From contig NZ_WTYX01000001.1 in the NCBI RefSeq assembly GCF_009827395.1, forward strand, positions 997,722 to 1,061,721: a DNA stretch of 64,000 bases. Direction: 5' to 3'. The translations under genes were made by a program, and so were the position numbers. Positions 39,701 to 46,405 of the stretch are shown here, piece by piece (position 1 is the first letter of the stretch; every line of letters begins with the position of its first letter). Under the pieces are notes generated by a model. The model ran no database searches and was not told the origin of the DNA. It saw nothing but the letters and a program-made list of their open reading frames with translations. The DNA is from Pontixanthobacter aquaemixtae. GTDB lineage: Bacteria > Pseudomonadota > Alphaproteobacteria > Sphingomonadales > Sphingomonadaceae.

Positions 39701-40441
39701 TCACAAGCAAGCGTTTGTCGCACCATCTTTGGCTGCTGGATAGGGGCCAGAACCTGCCGCCTCTGTGTAATTGGCCTTGATGGAATAGGCTGGTGCAGGG
39801 CCTGAAGGTGGCAATGTCGACTGCCAGTAGAAAGTCATCGGTTCGGCCTGTTCCCACTGGTCGCCCGCGTCACCGGGATTGACCGACCAGATTATTGCGC
39901 CGTCAAGGCATGTGACGACAATATCGGCCTTCTCGCCGATTGCTGCCAGTGCTTCCGCCTTTGAGTAACCTACCGAACCGGTGAAACCGTGTGCGGGGCG
40001 CAGCATTCTGAAAGAGGTGGCCTGCTCAACATCCGATGAGTCATTGCCCTCTCCGCTGCCGGTGTCGTCCTCGTTATCCTCGCCCGGATAAACGACATGG
40101 ACATAGGTATAGATCGTCCCCTCGGGCGCGGTTTTCGGATCGCATGGATCCATTCCGGCGGGGCAGGCGACGTAGGAACGGATATCGGCGAAGCTGCCTT
40201 CCGCGCTGTCGAGCGTGCCGGTGACTTCTGGCCCCTGCGGACCGACAATCTTTGCGCCGAGCTTGAGGTCCATAAAGTCGCCCACCGGAAGCGCCGCGGC
40301 GAGGGCATCGGCCTCTCCTTCGGTGGTCGCGCTTTCCAGTTCAGTCGCGTCTTTGTCGGGTTCATCGGAACAGGCCGCAAGCGCCAAGGCCGCTGCGGTT
40401 GCGGTCAGAAATCGGAAACTGCGTGTAGTATGGGCATTCAT
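39701..40441 (-). CDS. Putative outer-membrane or periplasmic lipoprotein, function unknown
   Basis: A 246-residue protein with a twin-helix signal and lipobox LAAC (MNAHTTRSFRFLTATAAALALAACSDEPD). The mature N-terminus is acidic (ATELESATTEGEAD) and an aspartate-rich insert with GEDNEDDTGSGEGND is at mid-length. Two Cys residues in YVACPAGMDPCDP could form a disulfide, and a third pair appears as VVTCLDGAIIW and TNACL near the C-terminus. It starts inside the last codon of yqeY (4-base overlap) and precedes dnaG. No assigned function. Confidence 0.72.
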   Translation of the reverse strand: MNAHTTRSFRFLTATAAALALAACSDEPDKDATELESATTEGEADALAAALPVGDFMDLKLGAKIVGPQGPEVTGTLDSAEGSFADIRSYVACPAGMDPCDPKTAPEGTIYTYVHVVYPGEDNEDDTGSGEGNDSSDVEQATSFRMLRPAHGFTGSVGYSKAEALAAIGEKADIVVTCLDGAIIWSVNPGDAGDQWEQAEPMTFYWQSTLPPSGPAPAYSIKANYTEAAGSGPYPAAKDGATNACL

Positions 40442-40890
40442 GTAAGGCTCTCTTTCACCATTGCGCTGGCTTTTGTCATATCCAGTTCAGCGCCGTGGCG
40501 AGCCTTTAGTTCCCCCATGACTTTACCCATATCCTTAATGGATGTGGCACCTATGTCCGATTTGATAGCCTCGATTGCGGCTTTGGTTTCTTCTTCGGAC
40601 ATCTGCTGCGGCAGGAATTCCTCGATAACCACCAGTTCGGATTGTTCCTTGGCGGCCAGCTCATCGCGGCCACCGTCAACATACATGGTTATCGATTCTT
40701 TTCGCTGCTTGGCCATTTTCTGCAAAACTTCGGTCACCAGCGCCTCGTCATCGATCTCTTTGGATGATGTGCGCAGCTCGATATCGCGGTCTTTGATTTT
40801 TGCGCCGATCAGGCGCAGCGTGGCTGTGCGTTCCTTGTCGCCGGCTTTCATGGCGGCGATAGTTTCGGCTTTGATCGTGTCGCGAAGCAT
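40438..40890 (-). CDS. GatB/YqeY-domain protein
   Basis: A 150-residue YqeY-like protein: MLRDTIKAETIAAMKAGDKERTATLRLIGAKIKDRDIELR, then the helix-rich QSELVVIEEFLPQQMSEEETKAAIEAIKSDIGATSIKDMGKVMGELKARHGAELDMTKASAMVKESL. YqeY shares the tRNA-binding tail domain of GatB, the Glu/Asp-tRNA amidotransferase subunit, though no amidotransferase core is present. In alphaproteobacteria it commonly sits upstream of dnaG-rpoD and divergent from carA, as here. Confidence 0.92.
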   Translation of the reverse strand: MLRDTIKAETIAAMKAGDKERTATLRLIGAKIKDRDIELRTSSKEIDDEALVTEVLQKMAKQRKESITMYVDGGRDELAAKEQSELVVIEEFLPQQMSEEETKAAIEAIKSDIGATSIKDMGKVMGELKARHGAELDMTKASAMVKESLT

Positions 40891-40979
40891 ATTGGGGTTT
40901 TCCTGTCAGTAATTTTTCAAAATCGTGGGTAAACTGGTGATGCATTCGTAATAACGCAACTTTCCGGCACTGGACAGGT

Positions 40980-41000
40980 TGACGGGAATCATACCCGTCA
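40980..41000. promoter_or_regulatory. Palindrome upstream of carA
   Basis: TGACGGG-N7-CCCGTCA is a perfect 7-bp inverted repeat about 53 bases before the carA start and about 90 bases before the divergent yqeY start. It could be an operator for either gene or a leader hairpin in the carA mRNA. No T-tract or leader peptide accompanies it. Confidence 0.4.
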
Positions 41001-41053
41001 CTAGCCACCATCTCTTAGCAACATCGCCGTAAACCCTGATTCCGGAGCGCCTC

Positions 41054-42235
41054 ATGGCATCTGCCGCCTCTTCGCCTGCGCAACCTAAAGACGCGACGGG
41101 AGTCCTCGTTCTGGCTGATGGATCGGTGATCTGGGGCAAAGGCTTTGGCGCCACAGGCGATGCGGTGGGCGAAGTGTGCTTCAACACCAGCATGACCGGC
41201 TATCAGGAAGTGATGACCGATCCGTCCTACGCGGCGCAGATCGTCACCTTTACTTTCCCGCATATCGGCAATGTCGGTGCAAATGGCGAAGATATCGAAG
41301 GGCTGGTCGAAAGCGCGGTTGGCTGCGTGGTGCGCGAGGACGTGACGCCATCGGCCAATTTCCGTGCAGAACAGCAATTCACCGAATGGATGGAAGCCAA
41401 GGGCAAGATCGGCCTGTCGGGCATAGATACCCGCGCGCTGACCCGCCGCATCCGCCTGTCAGGCGCGCCCAATGCGGTGATTGCCCATTCGCCGGATGGC
41501 AAGTTTGATATCCCCGCTTTGCTCAAACGCGCGCAGGAATGGGCCGGGCTGGAAGGTATGGATCTGGCGCAGCGGGTTAGCCGCGCGGATCAGGAAAGCT
41601 GGGAAGGCGGCTATTGGACTTTGGGCAAGGGCTATGGGCGCGCTGCGCGTGATGCCACGCCGCACGTTGTCGCCATCGATTACGGCGCAAAGGACAATAT
41701 CTTCCGCAATCTGGTGAAGGCCGGCGCGCGGGTGACGGTAGTTCCGGCCAAGACCAGCTTGGAGGAGATCGAGGCGCTCAAACCCGATGGCGTGTTCCTG
41801 TCCAACGGACCGGGCGATCCGGCAGCGACGGGCGCCTACGCAGTGCCGGTGATCAAGGCGCTGCTCGACAAGGATGTGCCTTTGTTCGGCATTTGCCTCG
41901 GCCACCAGATGCTTGCGCTGGCGGCGGGCGCAAAGACCACCAAAATGCACCAAGGCCATCGCGGCGCAAACCATCCGGTCCAGCGCGTTGGAGAAGGTTG
42001 GGGCGAAACCACTGGCCTCGTCGAAATCACCAGCATGAACCACGGTTTCGCTGTCGATGGCGAGACTTTACCCGATGGCGTCGAGGAAACGCATGTCAGC
42101 CTTTTCGATGGCAGCAATTGCGGCATCGCGGTGAAGGGCAAACGCGCGTTCGGCGTCCAATACCACCCCGAGGCCAGCCCCGGCCCGCAAGACAGCTTCT
42201 ACCTGTTCGAGAAGTTTGTTGGAGGCTTGGGGTGA
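41054..42235 (+). CDS. carA: Carbamoyl phosphate synthase small subunit
   Basis: A 393-residue glutamine amidotransferase subunit for carbamoyl phosphate (pyrimidine and arginine synthesis). The N-terminal domain contains GEVCFNTSMTGYQEVMTDPSYAAQIVTFTFPHIGNVG. The class I amidotransferase triad is in PLFGICLGHQMLALA (Cys nucleophile) and VQYHPEASPGP (His, Glu). Its stop codon overlaps the GTG of a small lipoprotein gene; carB begins 847 bases further on because of the intervening insertion. Confidence 0.97.
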   Translation: MASAASSPAQPKDATGVLVLADGSVIWGKGFGATGDAVGEVCFNTSMTGYQEVMTDPSYAAQIVTFTFPHIGNVGANGEDIEGLVESAVGCVVREDVTPSANFRAEQQFTEWMEAKGKIGLSGIDTRALTRRIRLSGAPNAVIAHSPDGKFDIPALLKRAQEWAGLEGMDLAQRVSRADQESWEGGYWTLGKGYGRAARDATPHVVAIDYGAKDNIFRNLVKAGARVTVVPAKTSLEEIEALKPDGVFLSNGPGDPAATGAYAVPVIKALLDKDVPLFGICLGHQMLALAAGAKTTKMHQGHRGANHPVQRVGEGWGETTGLVEITSMNHGFAVDGETLPDGVEETHVSLFDGSNCGIAVKGKRAFGVQYHPEASPGPQDSFYLFEKFVGGLG

Positions 42236-42510
42236 GACAAAATTCGCTCCCTGTTCCCTCTCTGTTGCTATCGGTTGGCCTAATTTCCTGCACGGCAGGT
42301 GGCGAAGAATTGTCCGATCATAGAACCGAGGCTGTCCTCGAACAAATTGCTGCCGAATGCGAACTTGGAGGGTACCTTCTTGTTATTGATGGCGACAGTG
42401 TCGTGGTGACTGCGCGCGCGGAGATCCGGCAATTGCCACTCGAACACAAGAAATATGAATGCGCTGCTCGGTTCGTAAACGAACGCCTAGGTCAGAAGAT
42501 AGGTTCCTAA
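42232..42510 (+). CDS. Small lipoprotein between carA and carB
   Basis: A 92-residue protein. The GTG start overlaps the carA stop (GTGA) and is preceded by GGAGG, a good Shine-Dalgarno. A hydrophobic signal segment (LPVPSLLLSVGLIS) ends in the lipobox LISC. The mature part is acidic with two Cys residues (AECELGG, KKYECAARF) and reads ELSDHRTEAVLEQIAAECELGGYLLVIDGDSVVVTA. The TAA stop overlaps the ATG of the carB 5' remnant. The function is unknown. It is translationally coupled to carA. Confidence 0.7.
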   Translation: MRQNSLPVPSLLLSVGLISCTAGGEELSDHRTEAVLEQIAAECELGGYLLVIDGDSVVVTARAEIRQLPLEHKKYECAARFVNERLGQKIGS

Positions 42511-42593
42511 TGCCGAAACGCACTGACATTTCCTCAGCTGCCGTGAACTCCCTTCCCCTTGGGGAAGGGTTGGGGATGGGGGGTCGGCGGTGA
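42510..42593 (+). pseudogene. Remnant or copy of the carB 5' end
   Basis: ATG at 42510 overlaps the lipoprotein stop as TAATG. The first nine codons encode MPKRTDISS, identical in protein to the start of the intact carB at 43082. The two DNA copies differ at five positions, all in third codon positions. After codon nine the match ends, and the frame runs into the palindromic repeat before stopping at 42593, giving a 27-codon orphan. This looks like the ancestral carB start, cut off from its gene by the inserted segment. Confidence 0.75.
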
Positions 42594-42655
42594 TTGGGGG
42601 CGAAACCGCTGGCGTCGAGCACCCATCCCCCGGCCCCTTCCCTCAAGGGAAGGGG
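42550..42655. repeat. REPIN-like inverted pair of REP palindromes
   Basis: Left palindrome CCCTTCCCC-TT-GGGGAAGGG (42550-42569) and right palindrome CCCCTTCCCT-CA-AGGGAAGGGG (42634-42655) are both perfect. They are flanked by GGTTGGGGATGGGG and CCCATCCCCCGGCC in inverted orientation, so the whole is an imperfect inverted pair with a 64-base centre. Confidence 0.82.
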
Positions 42656-42661
42656 GGGAAC

Positions 42662-43015
42662 TCAGGGCTCGTTTCTGGCGAGGGCGATTTCTTCGAGGAT
42701 CGCTTCCAGCACGCCATCGGTGTTTTCGAGAATATCGTGGTTCCAGAAGCGGATGACTTGGTAGCCGTGGTCTTCGATAGCCGCACTGCGCGCTGCGTCT
42801 GTTTTGCTCTCCGAGTGTTGTCCGCCATCGCATTCGATCGCCAACCGCAGGCTACGGCAAGCGAAGTCGACGATGTAGATGCCAATCGGAAATTGTCGTG
42901 TGAACTTCACACCACCGAGTTGGCTGGCGCGGAGGTGGGACCAAAGCACGCGTTCAGCGTCGGTTGCGTTGCTGCGCAGCTTTCGCGATATGCCGGTCAA
43001 TCGCTTTTTCGTCAT
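42662..43015 (-). CDS. DUF559 family (Vsr-like) putative endonuclease
   Basis: A 117-residue DUF559 protein from the ATG of MTKKRLTGI; a TTG seven codons further upstream is also possible. The fold's signatures are NATDAERVLWSHLRASQLGGVKFTRQFPIGIYIVDFACRSLRLAIECDGGQHSESKTDAARSAAIEDHGYQVIRFWNHDIL, which place the PD-(D/E)XK-like residues at VDFAC (Asp), IECDG (Glu) and RFWNHDIL near the end, as in very-short-patch repair endonucleases. It is antisense to carAB and bracketed by REP-like palindromes; its stop codon abuts the right arm of the inverted pair. The biological role of DUF559 proteins is unproven. Confidence 0.85.
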   Translation of the reverse strand: MTKKRLTGISRKLRSNATDAERVLWSHLRASQLGGVKFTRQFPIGIYIVDFACRSLRLAIECDGGQHSESKTDAARSAAIEDHGYQVIRFWNHDILENTDGVLEAILEEIALARNEP

Positions 43016-43025
43016 ACGCCGTACA

Positions 43026-43058
43026 CCCACACCCAACCCTCTCCCTCAAGGAAGAGGG
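43026..43058. repeat. Third REP-like palindrome beside the DUF559 gene
   Basis: CCCTCTCCCT-CA-AGGAAGAGGG (43037-43058) is a palindrome with one mismatch, preceded by CCCACACCCAACCC. Its flank and orientation match the right arm of the 42550-42655 pair. It lies upstream of the DUF559 start on the DUF559 strand, 23 bases before carB. Confidence 0.7.
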
Positions 43059-43081
43059 CTTTAGTAGCGAAGTCAGTCTAA

Positions 43082-46000
43082 ATGCCCAAACGTACCGACA
43101 TCTCCTCCATCCTCGTCATTGGCGCTGGTCCCATTATTATCGGGCAGGCGTGCGAGTTTGATTATTCCGGCACGCAGGCGATCAAGGCGCTGAAGGAGGA
43201 GGGCTATCGCGTCATCCTCGTCAATTCCAATCCGGCCACGATTATGACCGATCCGGAATTTGCGGATGCGACTTATATCGAGCCGATTACGCCCGAAATC
43301 GTTGCCAAGATTATCGAGAAGGAACGCCCCGATGCGGTGCTTCCAACAATGGGTGGGCAGACGGCGCTGAACTGCGCGTTGTCGCTCGAGAGCATGGGCG
43401 TGCTGGAGAAATTCGGGGTCCAGATGATCGGCGCGGATGCGGAAGCCATCGACAAGGCCGAGGACCGCCAGAAATTCCGCGACGCGATGGACAAAATCGG
43501 CCTCGAAAGCGCGCGCAGCGGTGTCGCGCATTCGGTTGAAGAAGCGCAGGAAATCGTCAAGCGCACGGGCCTCCCCAGCATCATTCGCCCCAGCTTCACG
43601 CTTGGCGGAACCGGCGGGGGGATTGCCTATAACAAGGCCGAATTCGAACGGATTGTGCGCGAAGGGCTCGATGCCTCGCCTACCACCGAGGTTCTGATCG
43701 AGGAATCGCTGCTCGGGTGGAAAGAATATGAGATGGAAGTCGTCCGCGACCGGGCGGACAATTGCATCATCATCTGCAGTATCGAGAATGTCGATCCGAT
43801 GGGCGTGCATACGGGCGACAGCATTACCGTCGCCCCCGCGATGACGTTGACCGATAAAGAATACCAGATCATGCGCAATGCCAGCATCGCGGTGCTGCGT
43901 GAGATTGGCGTCGAAACGGGCGGATCGAATGTGCAGTTTGCGGTCAATCCGAAGGATGGCCGCTTGATCGTGATCGAAATGAATCCGCGTGTTTCGCGGA
44001 GCTCTGCCTTGGCTTCCAAAGCCACCGGCTTCCCCATTGCGCGCGTCGCGGCGAAGCTGGCGGTGGGCTATACGCTCGATGAAATTACCAACGAGATCAC
44101 CGGCGCTACACCGGCGAGTTTCGAGCCCACGATTGACTACGTGGTCACAAAGATCCCGCGTTTTGCCTTCGAGAAATTCAAAGGCGCAAAAGACGAGCTT
44201 GCCACCGCGATGAAATCGGTCGGCGAAGTGATGGCCATTGGCCGCAACTTCCAGGAGAGTATGCAGAAGGCACTGCGCGGTCTCGAAACCGATCTCGACG
44301 GATTTAACCGTGTCGCCGATTTGCAAGGCGCCAGCCGCGATGTGGTGACCGGATCGCTGTCCAAGCGGTCACCGGACCGTATCCTAAAAGTCGCCCAGGC
44401 TTTGCGCGAGGGATTGAGCGTGGAGGATATCAACCAGATCACCGGCTATGATCTGTGGTTCCTTCGCCAGATCGAAGGCATTATCGACGCGGAGAAAGAC
44501 GTTGCCGAAAACGGCCTGCCGAATGATGCGGCGGGACTGCGCAGGCTGAAAGCGATGGGCTTTTCCGACAAGCGGCTTGCGACTTTGGCGGTGCGTTCGG
44601 TCGGTGTCGCAGGCGGCATGGGCGAAACGCAGGCGAAACGTTCCGGCTTGCTCCACGATGCGCTGCAGGCAATGGCAGGTGCAACATCCGAACAGGAAGT
44701 GCGCGAATTGCGCCGCAAGCTGGGCGTGTTGCCGGTCTTCAAGCGGATCGATAGCTGCGCCGCTGAGTTCGAAGCGATTACGCCCTATATGTACTCGACC
44801 TATGAGGCGCCCAGCTTCGGCGAGCCGGAGGACGAGGCTGATCCATCCGACCGTAAGAAAGTCGTCATTTTGGGCGGCGGTCCGAACAGGATCGGGCAGG
44901 GCATCGAGTTCGATTATTGCTGCGTCCACGCCTGCTTCGCGCTGGCCGAGGTCGGATATGAAACGATCATGATCAATTGCAATCCGGAAACGGTTTCGAC
45001 CGATTATGACACCTCCGACAGGCTCTACTTCGAGCCGCTGACGGTGGAAGATGTGTTCGAAATCCTCCGCGTCGAACAATCGAATGGCGAATTGGCCGGG
45101 GTTATCGTCCAGTTCGGCGGAATGACTCCGCTGAAACTGGCACAAGGGCTGGAAGACGAAGGCATTCCGATCCTTGGCACCAGCCCCGATGCGATTGACC
45201 TGGCCGAAGACCGCGAGCGTTTCGCGAAGCTGGTCAACAAACTTGATCTGAAACAGCCGGAGAATGGCATCGCCTATAGCCGCGATGAAGCCGCCGCTGT
45301 GGCCGCCTCTATCGGCTATCCCGTGCTGCTGCGCCCGTCCTATGTCCTGGGCGGCCGCGCGATGGAAATCGTCGATAGCGAGGCGCAGCTGGATGATTAT
45401 ATCAAGACGGCTGTGAACGTGTCGGGCGACAGCCCCGTTTTGGTCGATCAATATCTGCGCGATGCGATCGAATGCGATGTCGATGTGCTGTGCGATGGTG
45501 ATCAAGTCGTGGTTGCCGGCGTGATGCAGCATATCGAGGAAGCCGGGGTCCATTCGGGCGATAGCGCCTGCACGATCCCGCCTTATTCGCTGCCTGCCGA
45601 TATCGTAGAGGAAATGGAACGCCAATCCGAAGCGCTGGCGATGGCGCTGGGCGTGCAGGGGCTGATGAATGTCCAATTCGCGGTGAAAGACGGCGAAGTC
45701 TATCTGATCGAGGTCAATCCGCGCGCGAGCCGGACTGTACCCTTTGTTGCCAAAGCCATCGGGCAACCAGTGGCCAAAATCGCTAGCCGGGTGATGGCGG
45801 GAGAGAAGCTGGAAAGCTTCCCGGCATTCAAACGTGACCTCGACTATATGGCGGTGAAAGAGGCGGTGTTCCCCTTTGGCCGTTTCCCCGGCGCCGATCC
45901 GGTTTTGACACCGGAAATGAAATCGACCGGCGAAGTCATGGGGATCGACAAGGATTTCCCCACCGCCTTCCTCAAATCGCAGTTGGGGGCAGGAGTAACA

Positions 46001-46405
46001 TTGCCCGAAAGCGGAGTGGTTTTCGTGTCGGTAAAGGAAAGCGACAAGCCGATTGTGACCCCCGCGATTAAGACGCTGGTCGAATGCGGCTTTACCATCA
46101 TCGCAACCGGCGGAACGCAGCGCTATCTGAGCGAACAAGGCCTGCCGGTAGAGCGGGTCAACAAAGTCGCCGAAGGGCAGCCGCATATTGTCGACAAGAT
46201 GATCGATGGCGAAGTGGCGCTGGTGATCAACACAACCGAGGGTTGGCAGAGCCTGATCGACAGCAAATCGATCCGTGCAACGGCGCTGGAAATGAAGATT
46301 CCATACTACACCACCGCTGCAGCATCGCTGGCCACGGCAGAGGCAATTCGCTCGGTAAAACCGGCAGCGCTTGAAGTCCGCTCGCTACAAGACTATTATA
46401 GCTGA
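43082..46405 (+). CDS. carB: Carbamoyl phosphate synthase large subunit
   Basis: A 1107-residue CarB with two ATP-grasp halves (the first covers [35 protein letters not shown] and [14 protein letters not shown]; the second [26 protein letters not shown] and [11 protein letters not shown]). An oligomerisation domain lies between them, and an MGS-like allosteric domain ([26 protein letters not shown]) is at the end. It needs CarA for glutamine-derived ammonia. The protein begins MPKRTDISS, the same nine residues as the upstream remnant. About 30 residues longer than E. coli CarB. Confidence 0.97.

Follow-up and report, generated by a model that had tools for sequence, protein, structure and literature searches.

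A DUF559 nuclease gene framed by triplex-motif palindromes as a candidate mobile unit in the carA-carB spacer of Pontixanthobacter aquaemixtae and in other genomes

In RAYT/REPIN systems, repetitive extragenic palindromic (REP) sequences lie beside the gene of a single enzyme, the REP-associated tyrosine transposase (RAYT), and are dispersed as inverted pairs (REPINs), with enzyme subtypes paired with distinct repeats, as set out in the relevant passages of PMC3116915. A second kind of short repeat, the intrastrand triplex motif of Holder et al. (2015), has many copies in more than 260 genomes and occurs 23 times in E. coli MG1655, five as inverted pairs; according to the portions of PMC4666352 that treat its surroundings, the authors report that, near its E. 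coli sites, remnants of transposases or integrases were never encountered. Here we describe palindromes of this kind that frame a gene for a DUF559 nuclease. The case that led us to them lies in the spacer between carA and carB of Pontixanthobacter aquaemixtae, within a stretch of 64,000 nucleotides (contig NZ_WTYX01000001.1, positions 997,722 to 1,061,721) that we call the window. Our data support the view that the DUF559 gene and its palindromes constitute a single unit, some 430 bp long and widespread, that a site either has in full or lacks.

Among 61 unique DUF559 domains, GC-rich palindromes occurred on both sides of the gene in 34, on one side in 12 and on neither in 15, compared with 1, 22 and 403 of 426 control segments from the same loci. 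A set of 80 named loci, mostly Proteobacteria by title and including many metagenome-assembled genomes (MAGs) and some other phyla, was reduced to 77 by dropping three with a short flank; here the counts were 42, 23 and 12, compared with 7, 74 and 443 of 524 controls. The proposal of an earlier note, made from the letters of the window, that nuclease gene and palindromes form a unit is supported by this flanking and by the whole-unit presence and absence described below. Pooling both sets gave 74 loci with pyrimidine-rich palindromes on both sides, with units of 386-597 bp (median 430). The left and right palindromes of one locus resemble each other at an identity of 0.843; shuffling lowers this to 0.633, and the highest value in 2000 shuffles was 0.691, in a test uncorrected for kinship. 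In the clearest cases the ends are inverted copies, with the gene reading from one tail into the other. The plainest form is found at the yqeY|dnaG site (both gene identities were confirmed in the window), where CCCCTCCCGC..GCGGGAGGGG and a tail are followed by the gene and by a mirrored tail and palindrome. Similar ends frame DUF559 in loci labelled Proteobacteria, Nitrospira, Acidobacteria and others. A longer type of DUF559 gene, which forms a separate clade (L003, L018-L021, L024 and L027), has palindromes beside it in none of seven cases and may be a fixed, non-mobile relative.

By eye, the unit ends match the entries of Table 1 of PMC4666352, with CCCTCTCCC..GGGAGAGGG followed by a GGGGTGAGGG-like tail: a pyrimidine arm, a purine arm and a third, purine-rich stretch, the G-rich inner tail being present at both ends in 48 of the 74 loci. 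The likeness to TM_ECO extends to the inverted pairs and the intergenic position; unlike our unit, in which the motif frames DUF559 genes, TM_ECO is described in the passages of that paper on its distribution without a linked mobility gene. With RAYT/REPIN systems the unit shares palindromes flanking a gene, inverted pairs elsewhere and subtypes of enzyme and repeat that go together. In contrast to these systems, its enzyme is a PD-(D/E)XK nuclease (PF04480) rather than a Y1 HUH transposase, its gene lies between two ends, as in an insertion sequence (IS), and it is often present in several copies per genome. The RAYT family (PF01797) is missing from 20 of 23 genomes, the window's included, and present in G061, G097 and G127. 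Of the GTAG or CGTC tag of RAYT/REPIN palindromes named in the title of PMC3733652, counting the inner side only, GTAG fell within the first eight inner bases at 3 left ends and no right end among the 74 loci, and CGTC at none. We regard the unit as resembling RAYT/REPIN systems in its working without being a member, because the defining transposase was looked for and the unit's own gene is a different one. As in IS elements and their miniature inverted-repeat derivatives (MITEs), the unit has terminal inverted repeats, and derivatives that lack the gene share its ends. RAYT as a general mobiliser was rejected on account of its absence from those 20 genomes. Cargo of plasmids or phages was likewise rejected: DUF559 matches occurred in 45 of 72,556 plasmid records, at least six of them megabase records (2.2-5.4 Mb; Neisseria, E. 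coli, Klebsiella and Shinella) that are probably mislabelled chromosomes, and in 3 of 50,697 phage records.

Two sites within the genus show the unit present or absent as a whole. At LOG|crtI (names by eye), genome G000 carries a 472-bp unit where G002, G003, G004 and G007 have contiguous flanks (insert of -9 to 0 nt); G001 and G005 carry other inserts there, of 425 and 423 nt, with open reading frames (ORFs) of 147 and 139 codons. At the other site G001 carries a 476-bp unit where G003 has 3 nt and G004 has 56; other species have other ORFs, and G000 retains one unit end. This distribution points to insertion rather than loss at both sites. Among the loci examined, a T lies immediately outside 45 of 47 distinct ends of the crt type, so that either the end or the target must extend beyond the palindrome. 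Gene-less ends are scattered through genomes as inverted pairs whose offsets recur, at about 90 nt in G097, 100 in G127, 160 in G048 and 88-112 in G000, and the unit ends are the ends of these gene-less pairs. In the loci examined, DUF559 is missing from the inverted pairs with a spacing of 36-161 nt and enclosed by every one of the six with a spacing of 381-456 nt; backward-pattern controls for the repeat gave 0 in all genomes scanned. Nuclease and repeat subtypes also occur together. In 21 genomes, six had both the crt-type nuclease (at least 112 bits with A5) and crt-type repeats (at least three copies), one the nuclease only, one the repeats only and 13 neither (Fisher p = 0.00085, with cut-offs chosen after the data were seen and kinship uncorrected). 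In six genus members tested, crt-type repeats occurred only in the two with the crt-type nuclease (12 and 7 copies).

An alignment of thirty DUF559 copies has twelve invariant columns, among them E20, E60, G63 and H66. The predicted structure (pLDDT 90) matches best, in the PDB, 3hrl (ngo0050 of N. gonorrhoeae), next 3r3p (I-Bth0305I) and more weakly Vsr. A sequence profile reached only 3hrl and 3r3p below E = 0.01, the latter at E = 2.3e-4 and with a template modelling (TM) score of 0.76 by fold (TMt). We take I-Bth0305I to be an EDxHD homing endonuclease. By sequence and predicted structure, DUF559 is a PD-(D/E)XK nuclease that folds like I-Bth0305I, the resemblance to Vsr being weaker. The fold and the weak sequence match of the nuclease domain are shared with I-Bth0305I; by contrast, no intron or intein host was seen for the DUF559 unit, which is framed by palindromes and has dispersed gene-less pairs. 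YcjD, the E. coli member, has been placed in the PD-(D/E)XK superfamily (PMC1189080, in the passage concerned). In Caulobacter the DUF559 protein VsrA, linked to 5-methylcytosine (5mC), is needed for the SOS response in scmA mutants, according to the relevant passages of PMC12907096, so such DUF559 proteins can be active.

In the window, the spacer begins after carA, the gene of the carbamoyl-phosphate synthase small chain (41054-42235, plus strand; ORF with PF00988 and PF00117), which forms the left border of the variable region. A small cargo ORF of 92 codons (42232-42510, plus strand, from the ORF call) has a lipoprotein-like start by eye and no match in Pfam; its GTG start overlaps the carA stop (GTGA), and its end is joined by TAATG, at 42510, to a nine-codon copy of the carB 5' end (42510-42536, plus strand; ATGCCGAAACGCACTGACATTTCCTCA, encoding MPKRTDISS). 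The first REP-like end (42550-42583, plus strand) comprises palindrome CCCTTCCCCTTGGGGAAGGG (42550-42569) and the G-rich tail TTGGGGATGGGGGG, the triplex-motif pattern being recognised by eye; the second, found by inverted-repeat search and inverted relative to the first (42621-42655, minus strand), has its tail at 42621-42633 and palindrome CCCCTTCCCTCAAGGGAAGGGG at 42634-42655. The DUF559 gene follows at 42662-43036 on the minus strand (PF04480 at 4.2e-39, together with the fold and PDB matches above), encoding 124 residues from a TTG, with a further in-frame ATG at 43015. The right REP-like end, from the repeat search (43022-43058, minus strand), has its tail at 43022-43036 and an imperfect palindrome, CCCTCTCCCTCAAGGAAGAGGG, at 43037-43058. 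Intact carB (43082-46405, plus strand; ORF and Pfam) completes the locus. No known RNA family reached its gathering score in 40400-43400. The anatomy given in the earlier note was accurate to within a few bases for every element, the TAATG coupling included. Its count of three palindromes around the gene also stands, with the correction that the left two, with their tails, form a single REPIN-like inverted pair; the gene thus stands between this pair and a lone palindrome. The sister species G001 (L016) has the identical order of DUF559 and palindromes and a perfect third palindrome, with a different small ORF upstream and a carB copy of 12 codons.

DUF559 is far commoner upstream of carB than chance allows. 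It lies within 7 kb upstream of carB, always antisense to it, in 25 of 140 loci, where 325 copies in 149 genomes of about 3.2 Mb each would predict about 0.7. Fifteen of these loci have it between carA and carB, 13 have it after yqeY (in one of these a contig end truncates it), and three have both. In the DUF559 tree, which has few columns and an unsettled bootstrap, the copies at carB comprise a clade of nine (100/97), five mixed with copies from other sites and one more; its well-supported branches require at least two site changes, gains or losses, and units probably reached the carA-carB spacer more than once. A large and variable carA-carB gap is a feature of Neisseria in the older literature, and four of the five loci from this genus have DUF559 between carA and carB, oriented like the DUF559 copies at carB here. 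In a Xanthobacteraceae MAG, 237 nt separate an antisense DUF559 from the carB start, and a palindrome stands about 11 nt from the ATG. The gap is therefore a recurrent landing and gene-swapping site, Neisseria included. It recalls the minimal mobile elements of Neisseria, whole-gene cassettes exchanged between conserved neighbours; these differ in that the passages of PMC3898611 on their structure mention neither nuclease-framing ends nor copies of a gene's 5' end.

The nine-codon copy agrees with the carB start at 22 of 27 nt. All five differences (positions 6, 12, 15, 21 and 27) fall on the third base of a codon and leave the nine residues identical, as the earlier note had observed. To place this copy, we compared 140 carB loci, from 136 of 145 genomes and four of the genus, with 139 carA-carB spacers (median 410 nt; more than 200 nt in 107), counting as a copy any match of at least six of nine residues to the genome's own carB start. 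Eighteen matches in 65,550 spacer positions, spread over 13 of the 139 spacers, against 0 in 65,550 reverse-strand positions and 4 in 406,818 positions upstream of carA, exceed chance. Seventeen start at ATG; the exception, L168, may itself be chance. Similarity begins at the ATG and mostly extends about 25-80 bases. Several copies read in frame into ORFs with signal-peptide- or lipoprotein-like starts (by eye). A search for copies of the carA end with each genome's own carA tail was unproductive; with a consensus tail one was found, in L101, which has it instead of a carB-start copy.

We consider it rather probable that the DUF559 gene and its palindromes make up a compact, nuclease-bearing mobile unit, whose nuclease acts on the ends and which repair then copies. 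The DUF559 protein would act on its own ends, or on hairpins that they may form when single-stranded; repair would copy the unit into new intergenic sites; and the gene-less inverted pairs, or REPINs, would be its non-autonomous offspring. We infer that the nuclease does the moving, and infer with it the cutting, the specificity and the copying. Besides the limits of the co-occurrence test, several observations weigh against this reading. Of the 61 family copies, 27 have palindromes on one side only or none at all, as do 35 of the 77 named ones; the G-rich tail is not found at both ends everywhere, and the palindromes that adjoin the gene in the window share one orientation. Many units look inherited at their site in the DUF559 tree. 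Neither movement nor an excision product was seen, nor was a target-site duplication, for which the flanks are too diverged, and alignments of E. coli repeat pairs for presence and absence in 8 strains have borders that are not clean. Genome G127 has 39 crt-type repeats without a crt-type nuclease, and G009 has the nuclease with no repeat by the strict pattern; RAYT is present in the repeat-richest genome, G097, and in the repeat-rich G127. Lastly, the sections of PMC12907096 on VsrA report it as a putative mismatch-repair nuclease, a role without mobility.

That last report fits a different explanation, in which the unit is passive, its ends being moved by homologous recombination and horizontal transfer, and DUF559 does housekeeping such as Vsr-like mismatch repair. 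The 5mC link of VsrA (PMC12907096, in part) and the exchange of small ORFs between close species in the carA-carB and other spacers speak for it, but it leaves unexplained why similar ends frame DUF559 in loci labelled Proteobacteria, Nitrospira, Acidobacteria and others and match within a locus, and why gene-less pairs keep a fixed spacing; we hold it to be improbable. We give the same modest weight to DUF559 as a homing endonuclease that invades pre-existing repeat pairs, the repeats serving as homology arms and spreading by other means. The fold and profile match to I-Bth0305I, and the identity of unit ends with gene-less pair ends, are what this would predict. On the other side, LOG|crtI is empty of any insert in four relatives, so the unit arrived within G000 either whole or in two steps, and most genomes yielded no alternative spreader, RAYT being absent from the 20 noted above and other transposases not having been sought. 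It is very improbable that the palindromes are mere terminators or mRNA-stability hairpins beside small genes, although a terminator role is presumed for CCCTCTCCC repeats of Enterobacter 638 in the passage of PMC2869309 that mentions them: control segments of the same loci mostly have no palindromes, the gene has palindromes to its left and right whose inner tails are G-rich at both ends in 48 of 74 loci, and long-type DUF559 genes are without them.

The earlier note had read the nine-codon copy as a duplicated target, left when the unit landed at the carB start. Six copies do sit 40-55 nt left of the first palindrome of a DUF559 unit, and all six of these units belong to the clade of nine, so that arrangement could go back to one insertion in an ancestor, some 40-55 nt inside carB. 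As a general account, landing that creates the copy does not survive the comparison of spacers: 7 of the 13 spacers with a copy (6 of 12 without L168) have no DUF559, and in 9 of the 15 units at carB no copy can be recognised, although one of these nine, L161, lies on a short contig. Moreover, the copies begin at the ATG instead of at a random target boundary, with no similarity upstream of it by eye. Compared codon by codon with the carB of their own genome, copies beside DUF559 show 20 synonymous and 3 nonsynonymous differences and the remaining copies 19 and 13, where random changes would be 26.5% synonymous and carB starts of different genomes differ by 71% synonymous changes, a count biased toward synonymous because copies were selected by residue match. 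The copy in L146 agrees at 27 of 27 nt with the carB start of another genus (L190), the best of 140 starts, and at 18 of 27 with its own. We accordingly regard target duplication as still less probable than the passive unit or homing into pairs. From their ATG starts, their mostly synonymous differences and the L146 match, the copies look like the starts of working carB alleles joined by recombination, and the window's copy is most probably a scar left where carB alleles recombined in a spacer that swaps genes, rather than one of the unit's ends. Alternatively, the copies may be leaders that are translated and under selection.

Several further observations concern these spacers. At -832 from carB, L128 has a second carB 5' copy that spans at least 30 codons and is near-identical to carB, with the intact gene downstream. 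Small ORFs with signal-peptide- or lipoprotein-like starts (by eye) are fused in frame to a resident gene's first codons, a recurrent "start capture": onto carB in L108, L109, L115, L128, L209 and L215, and onto the DUF559 gene in L252 (G000; MITGPRDTVIRARKLR + SFFAIFALALSALSVGC...). In the gap at 42232-42510 of the window and at two other intergenic sites of the genus, small ORFs differ between close species; those in the inserts checked have 107-147 codons.

The DUF559 gene of E. coli, K-12 included, is ycjD (PF04480 at 1.4e-49), annotated between sapF and fabI, and its region is covered at 80% or more in 3,333 of 5,426 genomes. The 3' end of ycjD enters a triplex motif, degenerate in K-12 and fuller in L414, with a further motif about 180-200 nt beyond. 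On the 5' side of ycjD the palindrome is of another kind, the triplex motif being confined to the 3' side, which counts against the mobile-unit reading. Motif pairs of MG1655 are missing or shortened in the E. coli strains compared. Three E. coli strains without ycjD have an efflux operon between sapF and fabI instead, with no clean empty site; ycjD in place of this operon was noted in PMC12817139, in passages that leave the repeats unmentioned.

At yqeY|dnaG, the site used by DUF559 units in other genomes, an ORF for a small GIY-YIG nuclease occurs in L189, L195, L201 and 10 other loci (13 of 139 by tblastn), with PF01541 in L189 and L201. In the three loci that we read, it adjoins a separate palindrome family, GTTCGTCCCGAGCGAAGTCGAGGGACG, and the two together are a candidate second type of nuclease-repeat unit. 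A narrow search of open-access PMC found no paper linking GIY-YIG nucleases to such repeats, and a search of the same literature, mostly at the level of listings, found no print description of the DUF559-palindrome link, in keeping with the earlier note's view that a palindrome-associated role for DUF559 would be new.

Taken more broadly, and as a tentative proposal that we think somewhat less likely than not to hold in full, these units would be a transposon-like class whose sole protein is a small Vsr-fold DUF559 nuclease, the hidden mobiliser of triplex-motif (CCCTCTCCC) repeats across Proteobacteria and beyond, E. coli YcjD included, with a parallel GIY-YIG unit that uses its own palindromes at the same chromosomal site. 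A nuclease gene framed by the triplex motif in many lineages is a candidate mobiliser of very common short repeats of unexplained origin; since it has a laboratory-tractable relative, ycjD of E. coli K-12, that origin becomes directly testable, and the unit offers a testable function for DUF559. If true, a repeat together with a nuclease would be a general third route for spreading short repeats, beside RAYTs and classical transposases. In the ycjD region, the DUF559 genes of L414 and L420 end inside a triplex-motif repeat, and in Klebsiella L416 the ycjD match falls into two pieces and looks broken.

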